Source: an uncultured Candidatus Melainabacteria bacterium (GTDB lineage Bacteria; Cyanobacteriota; Vampirovibrionia; Gastranaerophilales; Gastranaerophilaceae). From it: a stretch of 32,837 nt of DNA. Made by a program: the position numbers and the translations under genes. Under the pieces are notes generated by a model, which made no database searches, had not been told where the DNA came from, and saw only the letters and a list, made by a program, of their open reading frames with translations. Position 1 is the stretch's first letter. Each line of letters begins with the position of its first letter. Location of the stretch: contig CASLVD010000014.1 in the NCBI GenBank assembly GCA_949398305.1, positions 1 to 32,837 of the forward strand, written 5' to 3'. Shown in pieces: positions 18,368 to 29,381 of this stretch.

Positions 18368-18397
18368 GCATGATGCCCCGTGCGGCCGAGCACCTAG
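18368..18397 (-). repeat. Hairpin repeat module A at a pilin stop codon
   Basis: Read on the minus strand it starts at the CTAG of the pilin stop and contains GTGC-TCGGCC-GCAC, then GGGGCATCATGC. The copy at 32732 has GTCC and GGAC in the same arms, so both sides of the stem changed together. Confidence 0.65.
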
Positions 18398-19014
18398 AAT
18401 TTGAGCGGGTAGTCGCCTTTGAATTCCCACTGATCGTTTTGGAGTAGACGGGTACAATATGATGTACTAGTATTTTTACATTTATCAATCATTTGAGCAC
18501 GGGTTGTTCCTGCATCTTTTATACCACTACCGTATGTACCAAAGAATACATCTTTGTTGCCAAACCAAGCTTCGCGATTACCATCTGTGAAACAGTATAA
18601 GAATCTGTGCCAGTCATATCCCTGGCGGTTAGGGCTTTTATCACCATTAACATCATAATTAACATCAAGACAGCCGCCGGTGTAGAATGTTAATAATCGA
18701 GAACCGTCTTTAAAATATACGATTTGTTTTGTTGTATCAACATATTGATGACCAAAATACGGGTCAATATTTTCCATATACCAGTCAAATCCGTTACCTT
18801 GAGTAGGAAGCTTCATATCTCTGAATGAACCTTTATCCATCTCCATATCAAGGATAGAGTTTTCCATTCTTGAGTAGAAGTTTTTAAGTTTTGCTGTATA
18901 TTCTTTTTTAACTCTTGAATAGTGGAGTGTCGGGATTGTCATTGCCGCAACAACACCTACAATAGTCATAGTTAGTAAAACTTCTGCCAAAGTGAATGCT
19001 AATATTTTACGCAT
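18394..19014 (-). CDS. Type IV pilin/pseudopilin-like protein
   Basis: 206 residues. A short leader MRKILA, then FTLAEVLLTMTIVGVVAAMT: class III prepilin signal with Ala rather than Gly before the cut. The family signature is present as YDVNGDKSPNRQGYDW, and the C-terminus has a Cys pair and ends DYPLKF. It would be cut by prepilin peptidase and packed into an envelope fibre. The upstream region has GAGG a little far from the ATG. Its stop codon is part of a dispersed hairpin repeat. It is one of three minus-strand pilins in 3 kb, split by cysK. Confidence 0.87.
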   Translation of the reverse strand: MRKILAFTLAEVLLTMTIVGVVAAMTIPTLHYSRVKKEYTAKLKNFYSRMENSILDMEMDKGSFRDMKLPTQGNGFDWYMENIDPYFGHQYVDTTKQIVYFKDGSRLLTFYTGGCLDVNYDVNGDKSPNRQGYDWHRFLYCFTDGNREAWFGNKDVFFGTYGSGIKDAGTTRAQMIDKCKNTSTSYCTRLLQNDQWEFKGDYPLKF

Positions 19015-19131: not shown

Positions 19132-20052
19132 ATGAGTAAAATTGCACGTGATTTGACAGAATTGGTTGGTAAAACACCTATGGTAAGATTGAATAGACTT
19201 AATTCAGGAGGTGCTGAGGTTTTGTTAAAACTTGAGTATTTTAATCCTGCCAATTCTGTGAAAGATCGTGCGGCTTTGCAGATGATAATTGATGCCGAAA
19301 ATGACGGCAGAATTGGTAAGAATACTGTAATTATAGAACCGACAAGCGGTAATACCGGTATCGGCTTAGCAATGGTTTGTGCAATTCGCGGGTATAAAAT
19401 TATTTTGACAATGCCGGAATCAATGAGCTTGGAACGCCGTCAGCTTTTGCAGGCTTATGGAGCAGAACTTGTTTTAACGCCTGCTGAGTATGGTATGAAA
19501 GGCGCTGTGGATAAAGCTTTAGAGCTTCATAGCCAAAATCCTGATTCGTTTATACCTTCTCAGTTTGATAACCCATCAAATCCTAAGGCTCATGTTTTGA
19601 CAACAGCAGAAGAGATTTGGGCAGATACAGAAGGCAAAATTGATATTTTTGTTGCAGGAGTAGGAACAGGCGGAACTGTTTGCGGAATTGCAAAAGGTTT
19701 GAAGACGAAAAACCATGATATTAAAATCATAGCAGTTGAACCATTTGAATCACAGGTGCTTGGCGGAAAAAGTGCAGGCGCGCACAAGATTCAGGGAATT
19801 GGAGCAAACTTTGTTCCTGAAAATTTTGATAAAACACTTGTTGATGAAGTTATGTCTGTGACAAGTAATGACGCAATCGAAATGACAAAACTTTTACCTC
19901 AAAGAGAAGGTATTTTATCCGGAATTTCCGGCGGTGCGAATGTTTTTGCGGCTGTTGAATTAGCTAAACGCACAGAAAATCAAGGAAAGACCATTGTTAC
20001 CATAATTCCTGATTGCGGTGATCATTATTTAAGCTGCGGTATTTTTGGTTAA
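19132..20052 (+). CDS. cysK: Cysteine synthase (O-acetylserine sulfhydrylase)
   Basis: It makes cysteine from O-acetylserine and sulfide using PLP. 306 residues. PLP Lys44 in NPANSVKDRAA, the substrate loop TSGNTG at 71-76, GVGTGGTVCG for phosphate binding, and GISGGAN near the end all match CysK. AAAGGAGAG lies eight bases before the ATG. Its last four bases overlap the end of the convergent pilin gene. No other sulfur genes are near. Confidence 0.95.
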   Translation: MSKIARDLTELVGKTPMVRLNRLNSGGAEVLLKLEYFNPANSVKDRAALQMIIDAENDGRIGKNTVIIEPTSGNTGIGLAMVCAIRGYKIILTMPESMSLERRQLLQAYGAELVLTPAEYGMKGAVDKALELHSQNPDSFIPSQFDNPSNPKAHVLTTAEEIWADTEGKIDIFVAGVGTGGTVCGIAKGLKTKNHDIKIIAVEPFESQVLGGKSAGAHKIQGIGANFVPENFDKTLVDEVMSVTSNDAIEMTKLLPQREGILSGISGGANVFAAVELAKRTENQGKTIVTIIPDCGDHYLSCGIFG

Positions 20053-20717
20053 TATGTAATTTTCCAGTTGTTGCGCTGAATATGTGCCAAACAAGCTGTT
20101 GCATAGGTATTTGTTTTACAGTATTCTAACATTTTTTCATCTGTTGTATTTTCGCTTGTAAGTCCGTTACAACTAGTTCCATATACAATTTTACCTTTTT
20201 TAGTTATACGAAAAGCAAAAAAGTCACGTCCTAAAATATTAGGTTTATCTTTACCGTTAACATCAACCCAGAATAATCCGTAACATTTATCACCGTCAGC
20301 CCATTCGTTTCCTAATTCACTTAATGAATAGTTAATAACAGCTCCGTTTTTTAACATTTTTGATGTCCCGCCCGGTCTGCCAATTGAATTTGTCATATCT
20401 GACAATTTTTTATAATTTGCCGGCCAGCAGTCATCTGCTTTTGTACAAGGATTCGCGATTGCCAGATTACTACCGGACAGAAGTTTTGTCGGATCCGAAA
20501 ACTGGGTATTGTCAAGAGTTTGGGTTTTATTATTCACAAGTTGTTCATCTGCAAGGTTTTGTACCATAAGAACGGTATTTTTTAATTGGGAAGATAAAAC
20601 CTTTCTGTTGATAGTGTCTAAAAGTGCCGGAATTGACAATGCCGCAACTGTACCGACAACTGCTAATGCAAGTAGTAACTCTGTTAAAGTAAAAGCTTTT
20701 TTATTTTTTAAAATCAT
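20049..20717 (-). CDS. Type IV pilin/pseudopilin-like protein
   Basis: 222 residues. Leader MILKNKKA, then FTLTELLLALAVVGTVAALS. The signature WVDVNGKDKPNILGRDFFAF and the C-terminal Cys pair with NNWKITY at the end match its paralogues. AAGGG lies before the ATG. It is ten bases downstream of another pilin gene on the same strand, so the two are probably co-transcribed, and its end overlaps cysK tail to tail. Confidence 0.88.
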   Translation of the reverse strand: MILKNKKAFTLTELLLALAVVGTVAALSIPALLDTINRKVLSSQLKNTVLMVQNLADEQLVNNKTQTLDNTQFSDPTKLLSGSNLAIANPCTKADDCWPANYKKLSDMTNSIGRPGGTSKMLKNGAVINYSLSELGNEWADGDKCYGLFWVDVNGKDKPNILGRDFFAFRITKKGKIVYGTSCNGLTSENTTDEKMLEYCKTNTYATACLAHIQRNNWKITY

Positions 20718-20727
20718 ATATTTTCCC

Positions 20728-21384
20728 TTATTTTTTCATATAATTGTGGTTGAATCCGGAGGCCTCCAGTAAGTAATAGCAAGCTAAATCGTCACCTTTG
20801 TTACATTCAGTTTTTAAAGTTTCAAATGAAGAATTATCTCTTTTTGCCCCTAAATCTCCCATATGTTGGTTATTGTCGAAATCATTTTCCCACCATAATA
20901 TAAGCGAAAATAAATCAACTCCAATTATATTTGGTTCTTTGATTCCGTTTATATCAATATTAATTAGTGTACGTTTATTATCTTCTTCAGTTACTAAATT
21001 TATACCAACCCCGTTTTTTAAAATAGCAGAAGCAGTTACATTACTTCCTATTGCTTTTTTAGTTCCGTTTAAAGATTTGTATTCATTATTATAAAATAGG
21101 GATTTAGTGTTATCTTCAATGTTTACAGCATCCATAGATTCAAGAAATTTTTTAGGACTTTTATAAATATTTGTATCTTGAATAGTTGTAGCTCTGGTTT
21201 TCATTATTTCGTTTTGAACCGCATCATTAATACTGGAAACGGTGCTTTGCAAAAGCGTAATAGAAGCTTTACTTGTGGTGTCTTTAATTAAGCCCGGTAA
21301 AACTAATACTCCTAACAACCCGACAACGCTCAAAGTTATAAGCATTTCAGATAGCGTGAAACCGTTCTTTTTTATCTTAATCAT
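20728..21384 (-). CDS. Type IV pilin/pseudopilin-like protein
   Basis: 218 residues from ATG 21384, preceded by GAGG at seven bases; an upstream in-frame TTG is less likely. Leader MIKIKKNG, then FTLSEMLITLSVVGLLGVLV, the only one here with the classical Gly before the cut. Signature NIDINGIKEPNIIGVDLFSL, and Cys pair before the end. It is the first of a two-gene pilin run with the gene ending at 20049. Confidence 0.88.
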   Translation of the reverse strand: MIKIKKNGFTLSEMLITLSVVGLLGVLVLPGLIKDTTSKASITLLQSTVSSINDAVQNEIMKTRATTIQDTNIYKSPKKFLESMDAVNIEDNTKSLFYNNEYKSLNGTKKAIGSNVTASAILKNGVGINLVTEEDNKRTLINIDINGIKEPNIIGVDLFSLILWWENDFDNNQHMGDLGAKRDNSSFETLKTECNKGDDLACYYLLEASGFNHNYMKK

Positions 21385-21445
21385 AACCAATCCTCATAAT
21401 AATATATACTTATTTTAACATTATTTTGCAAAAAGTTCAATCGCC

Positions 21446-26017: not shown

Positions 26018-26040
26018 GCCGGCAATATAGCCGGCATTTT
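26018..26040. terminator. Terminator between the 51-aa gene and a convergent pilin gene
   Basis: GCCGGC, loop AATATA, GCCGGC, then ATTTTTATTTT on the plus strand. The T-run overlaps the pilin stop codon. It probably serves the plus strand best, with weaker bidirectional use. Confidence 0.75.
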
Positions 26041-26744
26041 TATTTTATGTACGGAATTTTGAATCCATTATTTTTTATAAATTCCATGCACCAATATCCT
26101 GTACCGCTTTTTTTACAGTCCTTGTTTACATCTTCTTTGCTTTTATTGTGTCCTGCGGGTATAAATTCTCCGCTTTCATTGTTAAAAACTATTATAAATA
26201 TGTCTTTTCCAAAGGTATTTGGTTTGTTACGTATTCCATTAACGTCAATATAAAATATAAGATTTAAATATTTACTGCTATTAACACCAAAAATACTGCT
26301 TGTATTTGTTCCATAAATGTCATTAATACATACAGTACTGCCGTTATTCATAGTAAATGATATTGAGCCCGGCCCGCAATTTGATGCGTTGAAACCTCTA
26401 TCAGTGATAGTTTTACCGTTTAATGCTTTTATATCTGAACTCCAGCAGCCAGGTTTATTGTAACAAGTTGATGCAACTTTCATATTAGTTAGAAAATGAT
26501 TTTCAAAAAGATTAATGATTTCTTCTCTGTTATCAGGGGTTGTCAGGTCTGCTATTGCTCCGTCTTCGTATGCTTTTCTTAGTACATTTTGCAAAATTGA
26601 ATAATCTTCTTTAAGCATTGCGCTATTTCTGTCGTTTGTAAGTTTAGTAATTAAATTTGGTATGGTAATTGCCGCAACAACACCAATGATGCCTAAAGTA
26701 ATTAGTGTCTCGGCAAGTGTAAAAGCATTATTCTGTCTCATCAT
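26040..26744 (-). CDS. Type IV pilin/pseudopilin-like protein
   Basis: 234 residues. Leader MMRQNNA, then FTLAETLITLGIIGVVAAIT, almost identical to the first pilin of the window. Signature FYIDVNGIRNKPNTFGKDIF, four Cys in the middle and end parts, and the ending NNGFKIPYIK. AAGGAAG sits close to two consecutive ATGs (26744 and 26741), either of which may be used. It stands alone between a convergent small gene and a divergent small regulator-like gene. Confidence 0.88.
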   Translation of the reverse strand: MMRQNNAFTLAETLITLGIIGVVAAITIPNLITKLTNDRNSAMLKEDYSILQNVLRKAYEDGAIADLTTPDNREEIINLFENHFLTNMKVASTCYNKPGCWSSDIKALNGKTITDRGFNASNCGPGSISFTMNNGSTVCINDIYGTNTSSIFGVNSSKYLNLIFYIDVNGIRNKPNTFGKDIFIIVFNNESGEFIPAGHNKSKEDVNKDCKKSGTGYWCMEFIKNNGFKIPYIK

Positions 26745-28492: not shown

Positions 28493-28642
28493 ATGGGACA
28501 GGATTACAAGAAACTTTTGAACAAGAAAAAGAAAAAATATTGCGATGTTAAAACAATGGGTATTAACATTGATAAAAATGAGTTTTATGAAATTATTTTG
28601 TCTAATTCAGCCCATCCGGAAAATTTAAAAGGTTCTAAATAA
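28493..28642 (+). CDS. Small basic protein, 49 aa, upstream of the poly-G pilin
   Basis: It starts MGQDYKKLLNKKKKKYCDVK and continues GINIDKNEFYEIILSNSAHP, ending NLKGSK. It is Lys-rich, with no membrane span, and I do not recognise it. Its ATG is six bases after the -10, so it should be translated from a leaderless mRNA. Its TAA stop overlaps the AAGGAG that serves the pilin ATG at 28654. That places it as a leader cistron that could couple translation into the pilin. Confidence 0.55.
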   Translation: MGQDYKKLLNKKKKKYCDVKTMGINIDKNEFYEIILSNSAHPENLKGSK

Positions 28643-28653
28643 GGAGAGAAATT

Positions 28654-29381
28654 ATGAAATTAGCTAACGAATTCGCAAAACGGGGGGGGGTAACTTTTAC
28701 AGCTTAGCGCGGAGCGCTTTTACATTGGCGGAAATATTAATTACCCTCGGTATAGTAGGTGTTGTTGCCGCACTTACAATTCCTGGTTTGATGACTGCTT
28801 ACAAAGCGCATCAATTACGTTCTCAGTTTTTAAAGTCGTATTCGACAATTCAGCAGGTATTTAGAAGAATGGAAGCTGATGATATTTCGTTGAGTAAGGA
28901 AAGTTGGGTCGGAAATCAGTTATATAAAACTTTTATGCAATATTTAAGCGGAGCGCATGATTGTAGGGCGGGCTATATAACTGGAAAAGTGCCGGTATGT
29001 TACAGCTATAAAAACGGGAATTACATAACACTTGATGGTAAGAAGAATATTACAAATTGGTATTTTGATGACGGTCAAATTTTATTACAAGACGGAACTT
29101 TACTTTTGTTTGAAAATCCAAGTTCAGAATACGGTGTTAATGTATGGGTATCCGTTGATTTAAACGGTTGGGGTAAACTGCCTAATAAGGCCGGATATGA
29201 TTTATTTACATTCTTTTTCAAAGATGGAGAATTGGTAACTATGGGGGACAAAGGTACAACATTTCCGGCAGATGCATATTGCCGCTTCGATAAAGCCGGT
29301 GTAAATAATGGTATGGGGTGTGCTTATAGAGCAAAAACTGAAACGGATTATTTTAAAAATCTGGTTAAGGAATTTAAATAG
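28654..29381 (+). CDS. Type IV pilin/pseudopilin-like protein, out of frame at a poly-G tract (possible phase-OFF)
   Basis: ATG 28654 has an excellent ribosome binding site (AAGGAGAG, 28641-28648), but its frame reads MKLANEFAKRGG and then stops at 28705. The pilin itself lies in another frame, SLARSAFTLAEILITLGI onward, open from just after a stop at 28665 to 29381. One extra G (ten instead of nine) or two fewer would join the two into a leader of about 22 residues plus the prepilin cut site. The body has DLNGWGKLPNKAGYDLFTFFF, the family signature, and ends NLVKEFK. A start at TTG 28725 would delete the F at the cut site and has no ribosome binding site. A homopolymer error in the assembly is the plain alternative. 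Confidence 0.75.
28682..28690 (+). repeat. G9 homopolymer near the pilin start
   Basis: Nine consecutive G residues after the tenth codon of the ATG 28654 frame. It is by far the longest G-run I see in this AT-rich window, and it is placed where slippage would switch the reading frame of the pilin. Confidence 0.85.

Follow-up and report, generated by a model that had tools for sequence, protein, structure and literature searches.

Homopolymer-based phase variation is best known in a few pathogens that carry tens of tracts. In Neisseria pilC, the classic example among pilus genes, the tract is a run of Gs near the start of the gene. According to Jonsson 1991, as cited in PMC5084427, this pilus gene is turned ON and OFF by frameshift. 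PilC is an assembly and adhesion protein with few copies, whereas the genes described here form a family of pilins. The nearest tested system is the G-tract pilus switch of Bifidobacterium breve UCC2003, for which replication slippage in the G-tracts of the pilus loci was measured by deep tagged sequencing and the productive tract length, a minority in culture, was enriched in mice (PMC9187656). Like the locus described here, bbr_0113 and bbr_1889 belong to a gut commensal and contain a pilus gene with a G-tract close to its 5' end (9–12 Gs in B. breve); the productive length is found in a minority of cells, and the second frame lacks a separate start (PMC9187656). B. breve differs in having sortase-dependent pili, only one or two loci per genome and a tract that controls an operon, whereas the genes in our study encode prepilin-type proteins, occur as dozens of stand-alone copies and have the tract in a leader that is predicted to be cleaved. 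Another parallel is vlhA of Mycoplasma gallisepticum, a surface-gene family with many paralogues, every one of which carries a repeat tract between conserved flanks; a single length is active, and most copies are off (PMC6258824). In vlhA, however, a promoter (GAA)n repeat acts on transcription, while here a G-run in the coding leader would act on the reading frame. The Campylobacter phasome is similar in its poly-G/C tracts of 7–11 in surface-related genes, with a mode of 9–10, but has a median of ~20 tracts per genome and an ON share near or above neutral (PMC6321876), compared with up to 176 runs of at least nine per genome in the family studied here and prepilins that are ~96% OFF. A limited literature search returned nothing linking Gastranaerophilales with phase variation and nothing relevant for cyanobacteria, which is not proof of novelty.

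The window, i.e. the whole stretch of 32,837 nucleotides that was analysed, is contig C14 of a draft genome (G000, "own genome" in the following; 1.92 Mb, 109 contigs, 99% complete) of Candidatus Gastranaerophilales (Melainabacteria), gut-associated, non-photosynthetic relatives of cyanobacteria. The initial annotation had counted at least six pilin-like proteins in the window, and six were indeed located:

1–708, + strand: pilin-like, cut at the 5' end
18394–19014, − strand: pilin-like
20049–20717, − strand: pilin-like
20728–21390, − strand: pilin-like
26040–26744, − strand: pilin-like
28654–29381, + strand: pilin-like, the switch gene

The gene at 1–708 is a further member of the switched family, as the contig opens inside its leader (..SLNLGAFQLSPFKCNFQKAAFTLAE..), just 3' of the expected G-run, and this leader matches that of L143 and others. 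The own-genome contigs C6, C38, C60, C72, C97 and C20 also begin or end in poly-G leaders or at a G-run, so that the leader repeats probably broke the assembly.

The features of the switch gene and its 5' neighbour are as follows:

28493–28642, + strand: small conserved open reading frame (MGQDYKKLLNKKKKKYCDV...) immediately 5' of the pilin gene, with a stop codon that touches the pilin Shine-Dalgarno sequence
28641–28647, + strand: Shine-Dalgarno sequence AAGGAGA; motif and spacing recur in most leader copies of the own genome
28654–28681, + strand: leader up to the tract, made up of ATG, 8 further codons and C (MKLANEFAK R); paralogues have the same distance from ATG to G-run
28682–28690, + strand: poly-G tract of nine Gs, the proposed switch; the frames join with 10 or 7 Gs
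28691–28715, + strand: remainder of the leader, read as NFYSLARS in the pilin frame and presumed to be cut off by prepilin peptidase
28705–28707, + strand: TAG closing the out-of-frame reading after 17 residues
28716–29381, + strand: body of the prepilin-type protein, reaching from AFTLAE to the stop codon, with a predicted long N-terminal helix followed by a beta-sheet domain

Direct reading bore out the initial description of a strong ribosome binding site, a start at ATG 28654–28656, nine Gs and an early stop. The frame of this ATG translates as MKLANEFAKRGGVTFTA and ends at the TAG, while the prepilin frame, beginning AFTLAE, is open for 229 codons 3' of the tract and runs to a stop at 29379–29381. 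The two frames meet only at G counts of 1 modulo 3 (7 or 10), in agreement with the earlier statement that ten or seven Gs would join the pilin frame to the ATG, and the prepilin frame so joined is intact. The gene is flanked by rplS/rbgA on one side and by pyruvate kinase on the other, and no sortase or pilus operon was seen next to it. The small upstream reading frame also adjoins rplS in the sister species G026 and in many relatives without the pilin.

The product has the hallmark of a prepilin, the motif [G/A]F-T-L-x-E before a hydrophobic helix (AFTLAEILITLGIVGVVAALTIPGL), whose residues F2, T3, L4, A5 and E6 are invariant in 26 relatives. In profile searches the protein itself had no Pfam match and a weak match to ComGE; its paralogues in the window pass the N_methyl and IV_pilin_GFxxxE profiles PF07963 and TIGR02532. 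The predicted structure (pLDDT 86.6) consists of a helix at residues 2–54 plus a sheet. A Foldseek search of the model against solved structures gave no match, and VIA-align returned weak rows only, including PAK pilin with a Z of 4.2 over 119 residues at an rmsd of 3.6. A prepilin peptidase gene is present in the genome (PF06750 at G000:C34, 124 bits).

Poly-G tracts of this kind are far too frequent in the own genome to be accidental runs: 31 runs of at least nine Gs preceded by a non-G base were found in addition to contig-end runs (two of 12 Gs, one of 11), against 0.5–1.5 expected for runs of at least nine Gs in 1.92 Mb on both strands under a Markov model of the window (GC 34.6%). About 27 of them lie 28 nt after an ATG, or are cut remains of such copies, with a prepilin frame downstream. 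These copies share one type of Shine-Dalgarno sequence and leader, with a consensus of roughly MKNLTKLEKRGG-NCLKLNLSAFQLSPKKAFTLAEVLITLG. A few own-genome tracts are located in other genes, namely those for a cytidylyltransferase, an acyltransferase, a LysM-like protein and large repeat proteins. Candidate switches outside pilins were seen at L129 tract 1 (own genome, C2) and at L259 and L269 (G006), where tracts at the 3' end of a gene would fuse it to the next frame at another length or where tracts lie close to a large surface protein's signal peptide.

Across the order, at least one run of at least nine Gs was found in 235 of 286 genomes. Genera g18–g22 often have 30–176 such runs per genome, g33 and g34 have mostly none, and the other families of the order have few. 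In other genera, prepilin genes occur with G- or C-runs in unrelated leaders, which implies that prepilins with a tract in the leader either spread or arose repeatedly. G105 has very long or clustered G-runs at contig ends (C82:8065–8143, C66, C88), and runs of 14, 23, 40 and 52 occur in the stretches of G105 analysed; they are likely sequencing artefacts that inflate the count of this genome. Many switched prepilins, among them the G026 orthologue and L133, L139, L140, L155 and L156, have interspersed repeats of the type GTCATTCCGGA..., read as KSNVILNLIQDLLSNRFRLGGRND..., inserted in frame between the tract and the AFTLAE motif. In L143, L157, L179 and L194, a partial second prepilin motif with repeat (FTLAEGATHVA...) precedes the true one, as if an element had inserted into the motif and thereby doubled it. 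Complements of the Shine-Dalgarno sequence (TCTCCTT, CTCTCC, GCTCCT) occur 10–40 nt 3' of the tract in many leaders of G000, G006, G034 and G193. A hairpin formed by them was considered as a conserved regulator and set aside, since the excess over shuffled sequences is modest.

Where a tract follows a start with a Shine-Dalgarno sequence and leads into a prepilin frame, the DNA shows which length modulo 3 would join the two, and each such gene was scored as ON or OFF. In each of the sampled species, nearly all members of the family proved to be OFF, a result that the initial annotation had not foreseen. The 137 prepilin tracts scored come from 10 genomes, a pooled set and a metagenome contig; 132 of them are OFF and 5 are ON: 3 ON (each with 10 Gs) and 17 OFF in the own genome, 0 and 41 in G006, 1 and 23 in G105, 0 and 13 in G193, with the smaller samples alike. 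A looser count in seven genomes gave 111 OFF and 6 ON. If genes are treated as independent, the deviation from the one third ON expected at random has P ~2e-17; paralogues, however, do not fulfil this assumption. Giving one vote to each genome-length-frame class leaves 3 of 33 ON (P = 0.001), and giving one to each source leaves 12 of 12 mostly OFF (P = 0.008). An alternative start with Shine-Dalgarno sequence in the pilin frame is absent in 105 of the 111 OFF genes and present in 6. By contrast, of 34 tracts lying within non-pilin genes of these genomes, 20 keep the frame and 14 break it (Fisher 4e-11 versus prepilins), with the caveat that selection probably maintains the frame at mid-gene tracts. 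The comparison rests on such tracts inside genes, because 5'-proximal tracts in non-pilin genes (2 ON and 8 OFF, three of the latter being degenerate prepilins) are too few. The ON length is avoided whatever its value in a given gene or species. In G006, 10 Gs occur in 0 of 30 genes that need 10 but in 8 of 13 of the others (P = 9e-6).

Tract lengths vary from 8 to 12 across species, with a mode of 8 in G022, 9 in the own genome, 10 in G193 and 11 in both G006 and G105. The comparison with related genomes that had been suggested at the outset thus revealed variable lengths and not a tract fixed in frame. Within the own genome, the near-identical leaders L141, L149, L152 and L160 have 10, 9, 8 and 9 Gs while their flanks differ at 3–7 of 90 bases, and the closest leader pairs differ in length in 4 of 5 cases. 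The closest paralogue pairs in G006 differ in none of 6 cases, all having exactly 11 Gs, which looks more stable than a fast switch; slippage rates may differ among species. Same-species copies with another tract length were not found, as the collections hold one genome per species, and the one relevant IMG/VR match (L380) proved to be a different prepilin from another source. Loss of mismatch repair was rejected as the driver of the tracts, since tract-rich genomes have MutS and MutL (in G157, MutL was not found). In the tract-free genomes of g33/g34 (G127, G129, G134, G146, G163, G185, G195, G221, G223 and G263) no MutL over the cut-off and a divergent MutS were seen.

Beside rplS in the sister species G026 lies a syntenic orthologue with a GTG start and eight Gs, which needs nine and is likewise out of frame. 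At the other rplS loci examined, no pilin was present within the flanking DNA compared. The bodies of the two proteins are 61% identical, with dN 0.32, dS 1.92 and dN/dS ~0.17, and the pilin body is, on this comparison of coding sequences, under purifying selection. The prepilin body is also open in more than 100 relatives. Selection can preserve a gene only if it is expressed now and then, and the one visible route to expression is to join the frames.

We therefore regard the locus as a probable site of translational phase variation, a contingency locus at which slipped-strand mispairing acts in the leader that prepilin peptidase would remove; the locus would be one of a large prepilin family that is OFF by default, with few members ON at any time. 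The ON/OFF switch proposed in the initial annotation draws support, at the level of DNA, from the recurrence of tract, strong start and intact, constrained body in dozens of paralogues and in a syntenic orthologue with differing lengths, and from the bias towards OFF. Slipped-strand mispairing would alter the G-run by one; the start would be strong in both states, and the prepilin would be made only at a length of 1 modulo 3 and presumably lost in the OFF state. The glycines encoded by the G-run would sit in the leader 5' of the prepilin-peptidase cleavage site, and as they precede the site expected from the motif, the mature protein should be alike at different ON lengths. Each locus could appear OFF in the consensus if no more than a minority of cells in the living population have that pilin ON. 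The ~27 prepilin genes of the own genome, and dozens in relatives, may then constitute a library from which a cell displays a single pilin or a few at once; the consensus ON counts of 3 of ~20 in the own genome and 0 of ~40 in G006 fit such a few-active-of-many arrangement. Some observations do not sit easily with phase variation. Unbiased slippage would leave 2/3 of the genes OFF, far less than the 96% observed, so that an extra selective step must be assumed; intact MutS and MutL should lower the slippage rate; and the closest G006 paralogues all have 11 Gs.

The near-total OFF state of the family leaves some room for programmed frameshifting. In this main rival explanation, the out-of-frame tract is stable, and slips of the transcript or the ribosome give constant low expression of all pilins. 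Nearly all copies are out of frame with intact bodies in all sampled species, as such leaky decoding predicts, and a single offset prevails in G006 (32:11) and G105 (22:1). Of all OFF genes, however, 76 have an offset of +1 and 56 an offset of −1, and both signs occur within genomes, a mixture for which a ribosomal shift in one direction offers no explanation. In E. coli and Buchnera, transcriptional slippage affects A/T runs but not G/C runs (PMC5574713). Since near-identical leaders of the own genome also differ in length and three of its genes are in frame, we consider recoding unlikely.

Still less probable is the use of OFF copies as silent donors that recombine via the common leader into an expressed copy. 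Silent pilin copies recombine in this way in Neisseria, from pilS into the expressed pilE. The leaders studied here are alike within a genome and unlike between species, as if homogenised, and contigs break in the leader, a long repeat; both would be expected of donor cassettes. Yet each copy retains its own Shine-Dalgarno sequence and start, which donors do not need, and the copy in the sister species is a true syntenic orthologue with separate divergence.

A homopolymer error, with the gene in reality simply in frame, had been named initially as the main alternative. The gene comes from a single metagenome-assembled genome, and for B. breve the length of the G-tract in the deposited sequence did not match the length that was most frequent in reality (PMC9187656). 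Against this stands that the OFF state follows the frame and not the length: the G006 genes that need frames 0, 1 and 2 differ in tract length and are all out of frame, 20 of the 34 tracts inside other genes of the surveyed genomes keep the frame, and the pattern recurs in about ten genomes. A fault of sequencing or assembly cannot know the frame, which makes it a very improbable cause. That the gene is dying, with a fixed frameshift and a body heading to decay, is hardly credible: it is OFF in both species that have it at this locus, but 229 codons are open, dN/dS is 0.17 against an orthologue that is 39% different, and more than 100 relatives are equally intact.

That phase variation extends to the entire family of these uncultured gut cyanobacterial relatives is a fair possibility: dozens of pilins would be OFF by default through G- or C-runs in cleaved leaders, one or a few would be shown per cell, and selection would hold the ON length in the minority at each locus. 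Such pilins may serve in adhesion or help the cells to evade phage or host immunity. Homopolymer phase variation here appears to occur in uncultured gut bacteria not known as pathogens, and in the sampled genomes much of it is aimed at one protein family. This suggests a reason why annotation pipelines may call such genes truncated or pseudogenes. It also raises the question of what keeps most pilins off, be it phage, immunity or the cost or incompatibility of mixed pili. If the family-wide reading is true, a commensal would possess a pilin library on the scale of antigenic variation.
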